The notes below the pieces were generated by a model. The model did no database searches. It saw only the letters and a list, made by a program, of their open reading frames with translations, and had not been told where the DNA came from. From Bacillota bacterium (lineage in GTDB: Bacteria; Bacillota; Dethiobacteria; DTU022; UBA8154), in NCBI GenBank assembly GCA_030656575.1, contig JAUSPO010000010.1:1-54595 (forward strand): a stretch of 54,595 bases of DNA, written 5' to 3'. A program made the position numbers and the translations under genes. Below are positions 1 to 47,081 of the stretch, one piece after another (within the stretch, counting starts at the first letter, position 1; every line of letters starts with the position of its first letter).

Positions 1-130
1 CACAAAGGATTCCACAGACCACAATAAATAGAATATCCGTTAATTTGTGGTGGACTTTACCTTCTTGTCTTGTATCGTTCAATTCGCCAAAATACTCAAA
101 AAACTTTCCTTGGTATCTTTCATTGCTCAT
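1..130 (-). mobile_element. ISAs1-family transposase, N-terminal fragment running off the window
   Basis: The reverse strand reads from an ATG at 130 into a protein starting MSNERYQGKFFEYFGEL, followed by DTRQEGKVHHKLTDILF. This is the pattern of the N-terminal transposase-associated domain of ISAs1 elements (D-x-R-x-x-x-x-x-H-x-L-x-x-I-L). A G-rich ribosome binding site lies just upstream at about 136-142. The gene leaves the window at base 1, so completeness cannot be judged. The family assignment rests on about 40 residues. Confidence 0.7.
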
Positions 131-257
131 TATGTACCCCCCCAGACACAGTTCTGAGCAATATTTTACCAAACTGCTTTGATTTTGTCCAGCATTATTT
201 CTTTAATTTCCATTTATTGTCTTCATGAATTCGCCGTGAAAATGGTGGTTGCCAACC

Positions 258-286
258 TTGACACTTTTCTGTCCAGGGGGTATAAT
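258..286 (+). promoter_or_regulatory. Consensus sigma-A promoter of tRNA-Ala
   Basis: TTGACA at 258-263 and TATAAT at 281-286 are separated by exactly 17 bases. Both hexamers are perfect matches to the housekeeping consensus. Transcription should begin around 292, a few bases before the tRNA. This fits strong constitutive expression of a stable RNA. Confidence 0.9.
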
Positions 287-296
287 AGTGACACAT

Positions 297-372
<76 letters not shown>

Positions 373-376
373 GCAA

Positions 377-417
377 AGAACCCGCTAAGCATCATATTTT
401 AGCGGGTTCTCTTTTTT
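377..417 (+). terminator. Intrinsic terminator after tRNA-Ala
   Basis: A perfect 12-bp stem (AGAACCCGCTAA with TTAGCGGGTTCT, 377-388 and 399-410) is followed by CTTTTTT. It begins four bases after the CCA end of the tRNA. The stretch from here to 630 holds no gene I can support. Confidence 0.9.
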
Positions 418-630
418 GTAAAAAGACACTTAATAATCTTAAAATGTAGCCTAACTGTAGCCAATCGAGAAAACGCTCCCTTTTGTGCCATCTGTCATAT
501 AACGTTCCGTGAATTTCCGAAGTCAGGCTATTTTTCATTCATATCCTCTCAAATTTTGGGAATTCACTGTTAGGTGTCGTTCCCGCTTATAAAAACAGGC
601 TATCACAATTAACTTATGCTAGCCAAATTC

Positions 631-1098
631 TTAATATTTCCAACCTTCTAAACGAATTAGTTGTAAAAATTCAATACACTCAATTTGAAATTCTTGACAT
701 ATATTAGGAATCTTGAGTCTTTTAGCACCAGGTCCAACTGGTTTTTCTCCTGTAACTACAACAGCATTATTAACCTTTGCTAAAGCAATCACATAAGGAT
801 CTGCCCATATTCCATCGCTACTCTCATCAGGTACAAATAAAGGATATCTTTCAACGATTTCTGAAACTACATGTTGCATTTCCTCATTGGGCTGTATAAA
901 CATAAAATCTAATTCTTTAGCCCATTTATAGAGCTCATCTCCTCCTCTTTCTAGCTCAAGTAATACTTCATCCGGTGCAAAGAGCCGCTCATTTTGAGCT
1001 AAATCAATCAAATGATTCCACAAAGAACTAAAAATATCAGGTGGGTAATCTCTTCTCCATCCATGTAGTAGGGCACTCGTATCTATACAGAAAATCAG
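631..1098 (-). CDS. DUF4411 (PIN-like) protein, putative toxin of a toxin-antitoxin pair
   Basis: About 155 residues. The N-terminus (FCIDTSALL) carries the first acidic residue of a PIN nuclease fold. The middle has the ADPYVIALA motif, then VVVTGEK, both typical of DUF4411 proteins. PIN proteins cleave RNA with a metal held by three or four acidic residues. There is no ATG, GTG or TTG between the upstream stop and the conserved Asp. The best start is CTG at 1096-1098, overlapping the TGA of the preceding gene as CTGA with AAAGGGG upstream. A TTG at 1023 exists, but using it would remove the catalytic N-terminus. Translational coupling to the ImmA/IrrE gene fits a two-gene toxin-antitoxin operon. 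The toxin role is inferred from family and context. Confidence 0.75.
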   Translation of the reverse strand: MIFCIDTSALLHGWRRDYPPDIFSSLWNHLIDLAQNERLFAPDEVLLELERGGDELYKWAKELDFMFIQPNEEMQHVVSEIVERYPLFVPDESSDGIWADPYVIALAKVNNAVVVTGEKPVGPGAKRLKIPNICQEFQIECIEFLQLIRLEGWKY

Positions 1099-42493: not shown

Positions 42494-43120
42494 TTAGATT
42501 AGCTTTTCGGCAAAAAAGGATGCGACCTTCTTGGCGGCTTTTTTTGCGTGTCCCCACCAGAAATGATCGGCTCCATCGAACGGTTCCACGCTCCCCGGAG
42601 GCAAGTTTTTTACTTCCTGTAATATTGTAGATGGAAGAACAACATCATCGTTAGTACCGTAAATAATGAGGATAGGTTTTGCGCATTCCATCAACATGCC
42701 TTCGGTGATTACAGGTGAAACCCCTGCCATTGCTTTGACGAGGTTACTATGCAGCCCAGAGGACAGAGCTACCATCCCACCGAAGGAATAGCCCATCAGA
42801 CCAAGCCTTGAAGCCTCTACTTCTTCCCTTCCTGCCAGATAAGAAAGGGCGGCCAGGGCATCTGCTTCTTCACCAATTCCCTCACCGTAAGAACCCTCAC
42901 TGCTGCCCACACCGCGAAAATTAAACCTTAAAGCTGCTATGCCCCTGTCTGTCAACGTTCGGCTGACTGCCATAATAACATTATTATCCATATTTCCACC
43001 GTAAAGGGGATGGGGATGACAGAGAACGACCCCTGGACAGAGTTGAGGTGTATCGGGCAGAACAAGGCATCCCTCCAAGTTTAGTTTAGCACTTTTAAAA
43101 TTAACTTCTATTTCCTTCAT
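42494..43120 (-). CDS. Alpha/beta hydrolase (dienelactone-hydrolase-like)
   Basis: 208 residues from the ATG at 43120 (GGGGGCTG upstream, MKEIEVNFKSAKLNLEG). An earlier in-frame ATG adds five residues. Catalytic features are the GYSFGG nucleophile elbow (Ser), ILIIYGTNDDVV (Asp) and DGADHFWWG (His). HPHPLYGGNMDNNV is the typical oxyanion strand for this small cytosolic hydrolase group. The substrate is unknown. It stands between two repeat-bearing spacers with no operon partner. Confidence 0.9.
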   Translation of the reverse strand: MKEIEVNFKSAKLNLEGCLVLPDTPQLCPGVVLCHPHPLYGGNMDNNVIMAVSRTLTDRGIAALRFNFRGVGSSEGSYGEGIGEEADALAALSYLAGREEVEASRLGLMGYSFGGMVALSSGLHSNLVKAMAGVSPVITEGMLMECAKPILIIYGTNDDVVLPSTILQEVKNLPPGSVEPFDGADHFWWGHAKKAAKKVASFFAEKLI

Positions 43121-43261
43121 AACAACAGCCCCCATATCAAAATATATCGCTTTATCAAAAGAAATTTCTACAACAACTTGAGAAATTCCTTTCCCCTGAG
43201 ATGGCAGTTCCTTAAAATAGTATCTTTAACCCAGATAAAAACACACTATTGAGATCAAAAT

Positions 43262-43396: not shown

Positions 43397-44296
43397 ATGA
43401 TTTTGGAAGTTATGGCTCTTTCCCTCTCGGACGCTTCTTTTTCTTCCCCTTTAGAATATGAGGACAGTGTTGAGCGAATAGCAGGAGAGGTTCAAATGCG
43501 GGCAGATCTCGCTGTGCTTCCTGCATACAGCGCCCTACTTTTTGCCTGGAACTGCAGCATGATCAAAAAAGTATCAGGTTTTCGTGAGGCAGTACTCTCT
43601 TACCTGGATAATTGTGAAGAGGTAAATGGGGAATTTTTAAACAGTCATATAAAACTGGCAAAGAACCTCAACCTCTGCATCATCAGCGGGACGACCCTGG
43701 AACGTGAGGGGAGAAAGATCTATCATACTTCCACTGCGCTGGACAGGAAAGGAAAAGTATTGGGAAAGCAGAGACAGACTCACCTTTCAGCCCTTGAGCA
43801 GGGACTGGGTATCTGCAGGGGAAACGAACTGCAGGTCTTTAACACGGACCTGGGAAGGATAGGTATTGTTGTGGGGAACGATGCCTGGTACCCGGAAGTA
43901 AGCCGTATCCTGGCCCTGCAGGGCGCAGAAATTATCTGCCACCCGGGAGCTTTAGATACGGACCATAGTTCTTCATGGCGGCAGCTGTCGGGAATGTGGC
44001 GGGAAGTCCAGCAGAACCAGTTTTTCTGCGTGGAAAGTCAGCTCACTGCCCGCATTGGTGGGGAAAGCTTCTCAGCTCAAAGCGCTGTTCACGCCCCCTG
44101 TGAAATGACAGAAGGAAAAAGCGGCTATCTTGCCCTGGGAAAAACCGGTCAAGAATGGGTCAGCGCCCACCTTGATTTTACTGCCAGGGAAAAGGTCATC
44201 CAAAATTATCCCCTCTTATCATTTTTAAACCGGGAAGCCTACCGACACTATTTCCCACAAATTTACGCATCGATTCAAAAGCAGGAGGTGAAATAA
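43397..44296 (+). CDS. Nitrilase-fold protein with all three catalytic residues lost
   Basis: 299 residues with the carbon-nitrogen hydrolase layout: start strand, RADLAVLPA, LGKQRQTHL, GRIGIVVGNDAWYPEVSRILALQGAEII. Aligned with the next gene's product, the catalytic Glu is Ala43, Lys is Gln127 and Cys is Gly160. The fold residues are kept, so it is probably a non-catalytic partner rather than a decaying gene: no frameshift, no stop and a clean end. It is followed with no gap by an intact nitrilase (stop at 44294-44296, TTG at 44297), so the two are co-translated and may form a hetero-oligomer. Confidence 0.85.
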   Translation: MILEVMALSLSDASFSSPLEYEDSVERIAGEVQMRADLAVLPAYSALLFAWNCSMIKKVSGFREAVLSYLDNCEEVNGEFLNSHIKLAKNLNLCIISGTTLEREGRKIYHTSTALDRKGKVLGKQRQTHLSALEQGLGICRGNELQVFNTDLGRIGIVVGNDAWYPEVSRILALQGAEIICHPGALDTDHSSSWRQLSGMWREVQQNQFFCVESQLTARIGGESFSAQSAVHAPCEMTEGKSGYLALGKTGQEWVSAHLDFTAREKVIQNYPLLSFLNREAYRHYFPQIYASIQKQEVK

Positions 44297-45379
44297 TTGT
44301 TAAGTTCCTGGAAAGAGCGGCTCCTCCTCCATTATCTTTTCTGGAAAACGCGGTCTGCACGTTTTCAGCGATACCTGCAAGGGAAGAGTTCTGTGGTAAA
44401 GGGCAGGGAAATGAGGATCGACCGCAGAAAGATCCGCGCCGTTGCGGTTCAGCAAAAACTGGAACTTTATACAGAGCCCCTCCATTATGCAGAACAGATG
44501 CGCCTACAGGTGGAAAAGGCCGTACAGATGGAAGCCCATTTAGTAGTTTTCCCCGAAAATAACGGCATACAACTGCTGGGAATGCTTCCGGGAATAAAAA
44601 AGCTTGCAGGAAAAGGAGAAACAAGTTTAGAAGGAAGAACCGGCCAGCTATCCGTCCTCGATGTATTGTGCTTCGTGGGGCCGGTTATTGAAAAAGCTGC
44701 CCGCACGATCTTTTCGCTGCTGGCAGCCAAATACAACGTATATATTATGGCCGGGAGTTTTTTGCATCCGGATGGGGAAAAAGTGGTAAACCGCTCTTAT
44801 CTCTTCGGCCCTGACGGAAACCTTTTGGGCACACAGGACAAGGTCCATCTATTTCCAACGGAGCAAAAATGGGGGATAAACAGTGGAGAACGTTTCCATG
44901 TCTTTCAGACCCCCATCGGGAATCTTTCCATGCCTGTCTGTATGGACGCCACCTATTTTGAAACATTTCGCATTCTCCAGCTCATGGGTGCAGAGATCGT
45001 CATGGTCCCCATAGCCAATGCTGAGCCCTATCATTTTTATCTGGCCCTGCGCGGTATCTGGCCCCGGGTGCAGGAAACCCTCGTCTATGGTATTAGAAGC
45101 GCCCTGGTGGGAAGTTTTCTTGGTTTTAATTTTACAGGGAAGGCAGGCATTTTTGCGCCCATTGATCTTACACCAAAAAAAGATGGAATCCTTGCTGAGT
45201 CCTTAAGCCATATTAATACTGATCTTGTCACAGCAGACCTGGATCTGGAAGCTTTACATGAACTCCGGGCTGCACACCCCTACCTTGGCGACAAAAACCC
45301 GGAATTATATGAAAAGTATTTCCCCGGAATTTACCTCAACCACAGCAGCAACGACAATCAGGATAGAGACTGCCCTTAA
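44297..45379 (+). CDS. Carbon-nitrogen hydrolase (nitrilase superfamily), catalytic triad intact
   Basis: 360 residues. The triad is E87 (VVFPENNG), K182 (DKVHLFP) and C215 (MPVCMDATYFE). A basic amphipathic N-terminal extension of about 45 residues is unusual for the family and might hold it at the membrane. The enzyme should cleave a C-N bond of a linear amide or nitrile; the substrate is not predictable. The start is TTG 44297, with AGGAGGTG 6 bases upstream inside the end of the partner gene. It is co-operonic with the inactive homologue above. Confidence 0.9.
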   Translation: MLSSWKERLLLHYLFWKTRSARFQRYLQGKSSVVKGREMRIDRRKIRAVAVQQKLELYTEPLHYAEQMRLQVEKAVQMEAHLVVFPENNGIQLLGMLPGIKKLAGKGETSLEGRTGQLSVLDVLCFVGPVIEKAARTIFSLLAAKYNVYIMAGSFLHPDGEKVVNRSYLFGPDGNLLGTQDKVHLFPTEQKWGINSGERFHVFQTPIGNLSMPVCMDATYFETFRILQLMGAEIVMVPIANAEPYHFYLALRGIWPRVQETLVYGIRSALVGSFLGFNFTGKAGIFAPIDLTPKKDGILAESLSHINTDLVTADLDLEALHELRAAHPYLGDKNPELYEKYFPGIYLNHSSNDNQDRDCP

Positions 45380-45651
45380 GAAAAGAACTCATTCTTACCT
45401 TTCATGCGCCAACAGATAGCATGCGCCAGGAAACCGGCCGACGATGCAAATGCAAGCCCCGTGGAAGCACAACCCTTTATGGGATGAACCGTTTCGCAGG
45501 CAAGTCCGTTATCCATCTTAACCCGGCTAAGGAAATCTATCGCTCCCCAATTGAGGGCAAGAAGGTCATTAACCGCAGCCATAGGCCAGGGATTACCGGC
45601 ATGAAGAGAACCCGCTTCCACCAATGGGCCTTCGGTATGAAAGTAAATAAA
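45380..45651. other. Spacer with an uncertain reverse-strand open frame
   Basis: 272 bases between the nitrilase gene and tRNA-Gly. A reverse-strand frame of about 90 residues ends at 45376 with KGCASTGLAFASSAGFLAHA near its C-terminus. It has no good start or ribosome binding site and its 5' end overlaps the tRNA, so I do not call it as a gene. Confidence 0.4.
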
Positions 45652-45725
45652 TGGAGCGGGTGATGGGAATCGAACCCACACGACTGGCTTGGAAGGCCAG
45701 GGCTCTACCAATGAGCTACACCCGC
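45652..45725 (-). tRNA. tRNA-Gly (anticodon TCC)
   Basis: Reverse strand GCGGGTG acceptor with CACCCGC, TAGCTCATTGGTAGAGC D arm, anticodon arm CTGGC-CTTCCAA-GCCAG giving anticodon TCC, TTCGATTC T-loop, and encoded CCA. All stems pair. A promoter with TTGCAC and TATAAT precedes it. It reads GGA glycine codons. Confidence 0.94.
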
Positions 45726-46175: not shown

Positions 46176-47081
46176 TTACTCAGGTAAATGCTGCAGGAAG
46201 CGCAGTGCCCAAAGCATGGGGGAAATGTGTACCTTCTCTCCTTTTAATGCAGAGCGAAATAATCTCATGGCCACATTGAGCCGGGCCTGCAGCATAGCCT
46301 CCCCCGCCTCTTTTGATGCCTCGCCGGGAATCCCCATATAAGGGAGCATCTGGGCATCATTTACCCAGGCAAGAAGGTTTGCAAGATGGTTGAGGTCCTT
46401 TCCCAGTTTTGGAGAGAACACACTTAATAAACGTGATAAAGCCATAACCAGCCGATTTGGGCCAGGAGGAAGGGAAGGCGACACGTCCCTGTAATCCTCA
46501 CTGACACATTCAGGTCGGGTTACGAGCATTAAGGAAGTTTCGTTACATCCTGCATGTGAATCAGCATCATCCCCACAAAAGCCCGGAGCGAGTCCGGTTT
46601 CTTCCAAAAACTTCTCCTCATGCTGGACCATGAGACGAAATACAAGACCAAAGGGATTGATCATCTGAAAACCATAATTCTTCCAGACCTTCCTGGCTGC
46701 AGATTCCGTGGCCTGCTGATGACGTGGTCCACCATGATTATCAGAGAGAAAGAGATAACGGAAGCCCTGCTTTGCCAGCCCTCCTGCCAGTGAAATCAGC
46801 ACTCCTCTCAGCAGTGGCGCGGGTATGGAAAGAGAACCTTTTACAGGCAGGGCATCTGAACCCAAAAAAAGAGGGGGCAGTTTCACTAACGTATAGTCAG
46901 GGTATTCCCTGTGCAATGCCTCTCCGTAGCGCCGCTGCAGTTCTTCGGCAACAAAAACATCTGTTCCCAGGGGCAGATGGGGACCGTGAACTTCAACAGG
47001 GCTTACGGCCATTAAAAAGATAGTTTTATCCCTATCCAGCTTCTCCACTTCCCGTAAATTCAACTGCACATACTCCAGCAT
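46176..47081 (-). CDS. Creatininase-family amidohydrolase
   Basis: 301 residues. Metal-binding and catalytic blocks of the family are present: SPVEVHGPHLPLGTDVFVAE (Glu, His, Asp), LFLSDNHGGPRHQQA (Asp-x-His) and DSHAGCNETSLML (second Glu). Such enzymes open cyclic amides (creatinine, formamidopyrimidine-type or mycofactocin substrates). It is divergent from a five-gene ABC uptake operon 260 bases away, so it may act on the imported solute. GGAGGG stands before the ATG. Confidence 0.9.
   Translation of the reverse strand: MLEYVQLNLREVEKLDRDKTIFLMAVSPVEVHGPHLPLGTDVFVAEELQRRYGEALHREYPDYTLVKLPPLFLGSDALPVKGSLSIPAPLLRGVLISLAGGLAKQGFRYLFLSDNHGGPRHQQATESAARKVWKNYGFQMINPFGLVFRLMVQHEEKFLEETGLAPGFCGDDADSHAGCNETSLMLVTRPECVSEDYRDVSPSLPPGPNRLVMALSRLLSVFSPKLGKDLNHLANLLAWVNDAQMLPYMGIPGEASKEAGEAMLQARLNVAMRLFRSALKGEKVHISPMLWALRFLQHLPE

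Follow-up and report, generated by a model that had tools for sequence, protein, structure and literature searches.

The nitrilase pair and its surroundings

The window (the whole stretch of DNA that was analysed, 54,595 nucleotides) contains two adjacent genes of the nitrilase superfamily, here called A and B (Table 1). The stop codon of A is TAA (44294-44296) and the TTG start of B at 44297 follows immediately, with zero gap. Both proteins match PF00795 (CN_hydrolase), A with an E-value of 1.9e-22 and B with 4.2e-19, above the cut-off, and they are 33% identical to each other. The gapless tandem of two nitrilase-fold genes given in the preliminary description was thus found again with both reading frames in place. 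Two more CN_hydrolase matches occur elsewhere in the genome. The closest named relative is a Dethiobacter MAG (locus L090), with 60% identity for A and 70% for B.

Table 1. Features of the nitrilase locus (positions are those of the window)
Feature	Position	Strand	Basis
Gene A, pseudo-nitrilase, 299 aa	43397..44296	+	PF00795 match, orthologue alignments, predicted fold
AGGAGGT Shine-Dalgarno of B, within the last codons of A	44283..44289	+	sequence
Gene B, nitrilase with triad E87/K182/C215, 360 aa	44297..45379	+	PF00795, triad invariant in alignment
Basic N-terminal helical extension of B, conserved, ~38 residues	44297..44410	+	alignment, fusion sequences, predicted helices
GH125-like gene, C-terminal remnant	45376..45651	-	70-72% identical to the L090 homologue (556 aa) over its residues 461-553
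tRNA-Gly(tcc), bordering the GH125-like remnant	45652..45725	-	comparison with L090

The AlphaFold2 model of A alone (pLDDT 92.8, pTM 0.89) has the nitrilase fold, with VIA Z up to 29.5 against nitrilases. In a phmmer alignment with solved nitrilases, Gln127 and Gly160 of A fall on the active-site Lys and Cys of 1j31/PH0642, and when A is aligned with its orthologues Ala43 takes the place of the triad Glu. These three residues, which face Glu87, Lys182 and Cys215 of B, are the ones named earlier for the dead site, and that assignment was borne out by the two alignments together. A fourth conserved residue, E134, is retained in A; it is the equivalent of the invariant E189 of B, and the two seem to match the residue that has been discussed as a fourth catalytic one in beta-ureidopropionase (PMC10741476). 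The pocket region of A is also conserved among orthologues (Gln127, D162, E167, W201, Q205, N207). A thus has the CN_hydrolase domain and the fold but not the Glu-Lys-Cys triad of an active nitrilase, and judged by its sequence it is a member of the superfamily by fold and not an active nitrilase by the triad test.

In B, the residues E87, K182 and C215 are invariant in an alignment of 42 rows, in agreement with the triad proposed before. The extra basic N-terminus ascribed to this protein proved to be real and conserved, its consensus over the 42 rows being GWKExLFxxYLxWxCRPARxxRHL. The scores of B with the NCBIfam models agmatine_aguB, nitrile_Arch and de_GSH_amidase are far under the curated cut-offs (70 vs 410 and 65.7 vs 500 bits), so by that test B is none of these named enzymes. 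B most probably serves as the catalytic subunit, with a Glu-Lys-Cys site and a predicted C-N hydrolase activity.

The GH125-like remnant retains the last ~90 residues of the protein, with ~460 N-terminal codons missing, and no other copy of this gene was found in the genome. In L090 the same tRNA-Gly lies upstream of an intact GH125-like gene, from which it follows that the genome of the window has deleted ~1.4 kb in between. As A and B are intact despite the remnant, they would do without this glycosidase here or use a different one. Two further genes lie nearby on the reverse strand: an alpha/beta hydrolase gene at 42494-43135, which L090 has as well, and one of the creatininase family at 46176-47081.

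State of the active site, selection and ancestry

The preliminary description held that orthologues of A with an intact triad, or a dN/dS near one, would point to recent decay. The full triad is absent from every A examined, in 52 rows of the class set and 116 rows of the phylum set. Within the class set, Lys is present in the A of L054 and Cys in that of L053, each without the other triad residues. Gln replaces the Lys in 112 of 115 A sequences of the phylum set. Where an active nitrilase has its Glu, 73 A proteins of this set have Ala, 19 have Gly and 2 have Glu itself; at the place of the nucleophile, Gly is found in 84 and Cys in 13. B carries Glu in 119/119, Lys in 121/121 and Cys in 120/121 of the readable cases of the same set. 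Since it recurs in every orthologue set examined, the pattern of one dead and one live gene is not a chance one. At L235:2486-3661 a B with Gly at the Cys position adjoins an A with a dead site.

It could be argued that A is an enzyme with a different chemistry, in which Gln127, Glu134 and the Cys still present in one clade might for example take part. The near-universal change of Lys to Gln is probably functional, and the Cys kept in 13 of the 116 A sequences would suit such an enzyme. However, most A proteins have Gly, Asp, Ala, Ser or His at the nucleophile position and nearly all are without the Glu, which leaves no common nucleophile. A different chemistry is therefore quite unlikely.

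The dN/dS between the window and L090 (Nei-Gojobori) is 0.23 for A and 0.147 for B, at a dS of ~1.4 that is near saturation. The closest pairs, whose dS is between 0.1 and 0.5, have ratios of 0.08-0.30 (A) and 0.08-0.29 (B). Purifying selection acts on A, which is slightly less constrained than B. The value for the dead member is far below one even against the nearest relative, and together with the intact frame, free of frameshift and stop, it upholds the earlier suggestion that the gene is kept.

A quick tree with SH-aLRT support and no bootstrap was made from 43 A, 43 B and 14 other nitrilases. It was found that A is monophyletic (SH-aLRT 99) and B is monophyletic (98), and that A and B group together, separate from the other nitrilases (95). 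This topology fits one old duplication that would have been followed by inactivation of one copy. In a second tree, to which single nitrilases with an intact site were added, the sequences L266-L268 group weakly with A (87). At L266:3923-7011 a GH125-like gene precedes a lone nitrilase-like gene whose site looks intact, and A is absent. The grouping with A and the GH125-like neighbour suggest that the pair may descend from one active enzyme encoded beside such a gene; L266 possibly represents the state before duplication, its placement in the tree being weak.

One could also regard A as a recently decayed duplicate without function, as the triad is gone and A diverges somewhat faster than B, which is visible in their identities to L090. 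Against this stand the intact frame, the low dN/dS, the conservation throughout the phylum and the fusions of A with B described below. Such a decay is ruled out by the triad counts, the dN/dS and the tree, and is extremely improbable.

Distribution, gene order and fusions

About 120 A-B loci were collected, nearly all of them from Bacillota. Among 120 non-redundant loci, 102 have both genes on one strand with A immediately before B, and in 7 the two form a single open frame; the remaining loci are mostly cut by contig ends. A match was obtained in 53 of 98 genomes of the window's class and, at E up to 1e-20, in 118 of 398 genomes of the phylum sample; a stricter count made by hand gives 78 pair-type genomes among the 398. 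The search for the two types as neighbours, which had been proposed as a check, thus finds A and B adjacent far beyond the window's own class. A scan of genome contigs with the alignment of B gave 154 relatives, which include Acididesulfobacillus acetoxydans, Thermovorax subterraneus and Thermosediminibacter litoriperuensis, whereas the same scan with A alone gave no match, as A has diverged too far for it. The MAGs of two loci are named for groups other than Bacillota, namely Acetobacteraceae (L147) and Candidatus Nitrosymbiomonas (L160), and binning errors are possible there. It should be kept in mind that the loci come mostly from MAGs and that the alignments are automatic. The A-B pair is inherited together across a wide range of Firmicutes.

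Two loci of other kinds were also observed. At L081:4328-5131, in genus g40 (G082/G083), A occurs without B and is truncated at its C-terminus. A divergent pair at L272:4404-6363 has a second gene that looks degenerate too, with weak matches and no clear Cys motif.

Natural A-B fusions exist in several branches (L161/L162/L202/L203, L165, L167 and L205). The basic helix of B sits in the linker between the fusion halves, where this is readable, and helices are predicted at 349-381 in the L162 model. The AlphaFold2 model of this 732-aa fusion, which belongs to the relative L162 and not to the window's own pair, was made with 13 rows and has a mean pLDDT of 82 and a pTM of 0.81, with disordered linkers. 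Three alignments of the fusions with single A or B rows were set aside, since in them the A rows fell on the B half or the alignment was less balanced, and a further alignment was used. VIA alignments of the fusion to amidases cover the range 1..711, from the first residues of A to the last residues of B. This range, which gives end residues only, hints that in the model the C-terminal arm of B may pack on A, like in amidase dimers. The fusions and the well-scored fusion model support the hetero-oligomer suggested for the two proteins in the preliminary description; for unfused pairs we infer a physical contact of A with B and a dependence of B on A.

The conserved pocket region of A may bind something, and A could then be a separate regulator which forms its own homodimers and senses a metabolite through the altered pocket, without a structural role in B. 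The fusions in several lineages and the strict order of A before B favour a joint particle instead, and A showed no domain for DNA binding or signalling. A separate regulator is therefore unlikely. A is most likely a retained non-catalytic partner of B in a heteromeric amidase of the nitrilase family, and not a decaying gene.

Proposed partnership and possible pathway

Our data indicate that A and B are probably two subunits of one nitrilase-superfamily enzyme, in which B is catalytic and A is a non-catalytic partner. The amide (C-N) chemistry would be done by B through its Glu-Lys-Cys site. A would pair with B over the usual nitrilase dimer face and could hold the active-site loops and arms of B in position. 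The altered pocket of A may bind a ligand, possibly making the pair responsive to it. In beta-ureidopropionase, catalysis is tied to dimer and oligomer contacts, and loops at the subunit interface need ordering for a working site (PMC10741476). By analogy with this ordering, a dead partner could do that job here.

In fold, A and B resemble the known members of the superfamily such as N-carbamoylputrescine amidohydrolase, Nit2/omega-amidase and beta-ureidopropionase, and B shares their Glu-Lys-Cys site. To our knowledge these solved nitrilases are homo-oligomers; the present pair differs from them in that one of the two paired subunits is without a site. In several enzyme families an active enzyme is known to have a pseudoenzyme partner, and trypanosome AdoMetDC with its prozyme is a heteromer of enzyme and pseudoenzyme in which activation has been measured. 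The likeness to that system is that a dead paralogue is retained beside a live one, as seen from the orthologue triads, dN/dS, tree and gene order, and by analogy it is probably an activating or stabilising subunit. The fold and reaction of the two systems are unrelated. No pseudoenzyme partner in the nitrilase superfamily was found among the open-access papers that were searched.

The neighbourhood of the pair adds another dimension which was absent from the preliminary description. When the flanking ORFs of 115 loci were clustered, a GH125-like protein was present in 54 and an MFS_2 transporter in 48. The former occurs in three different gene orders relative to the pair. Among the 398 genomes, 53 have the GH125-like gene and the pair, 25 the pair only and 6 the glycosidase only; thus 53 of 59 glycosidase genomes have the pair (Fisher p 1.3e-39, a value that overstates the link as genomes are non-independent). 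The link covers many families. At L204:825-4550 B and a GH125-like protein share one open frame of 1242 aa, which could be an assembly error. Of the 78 pair genomes, 25 (among them that of the window) have no full GH125-like gene, which means that the glycosidase is not needed by the pair everywhere. In the genome of the window an MFS_2 gene is on another contig. CoaE, MutM, PolA, YbaK, an isocitrate/isopropylmalate-type dehydrogenase and Ruv were considered as partners and rejected as clade-limited or distant, and many other flanking clusters were dropped as shadow ORFs.

The GH125-like protein aligns with the GH125 alpha-1,6-mannosidases (PF06824) and keeps the positions of the catalytic acid and base: its D289 and E458 are invariant in 40 rows and align with D220 and E393 of CpGH125, which are the catalytic residues of that enzyme (PMC9425025). 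It differs from GH125 in being only weakly similar over part of the chain and in having an extra N-terminal domain of ~200 residues. The MFS_2 neighbour belongs to the GPH-type transporter family (PF13347), which are sugar transporters. As the pair is often beside these two genes, it would usually belong to a module for glycoside processing, and we infer that the likely substrate is a small glycoside carrying an amide; a compatible solute, for example mannosylglyceramide, is only a guess. Nothing relevant on a nitrilase linked with GH125 was found in the open-access literature. A more tentative proposal, which is quite possible, is that the nitrilase is an obligate heteromer throughout the phylum, that its pseudo-subunit universally has Gln in place of Lys, and that together with the GH125-like protein and the MFS_2 importer it would form an undescribed amide-glycoside pathway.

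Activity in the nitrilase superfamily needs subunit contacts, and a natural pair of a dead and a live subunit, sometimes fused, would be a clean probe of the role of the second subunit. In many anaerobes, the glycosidase and transporter linked with the pair offer a concrete starting point for tracing a putative pathway.
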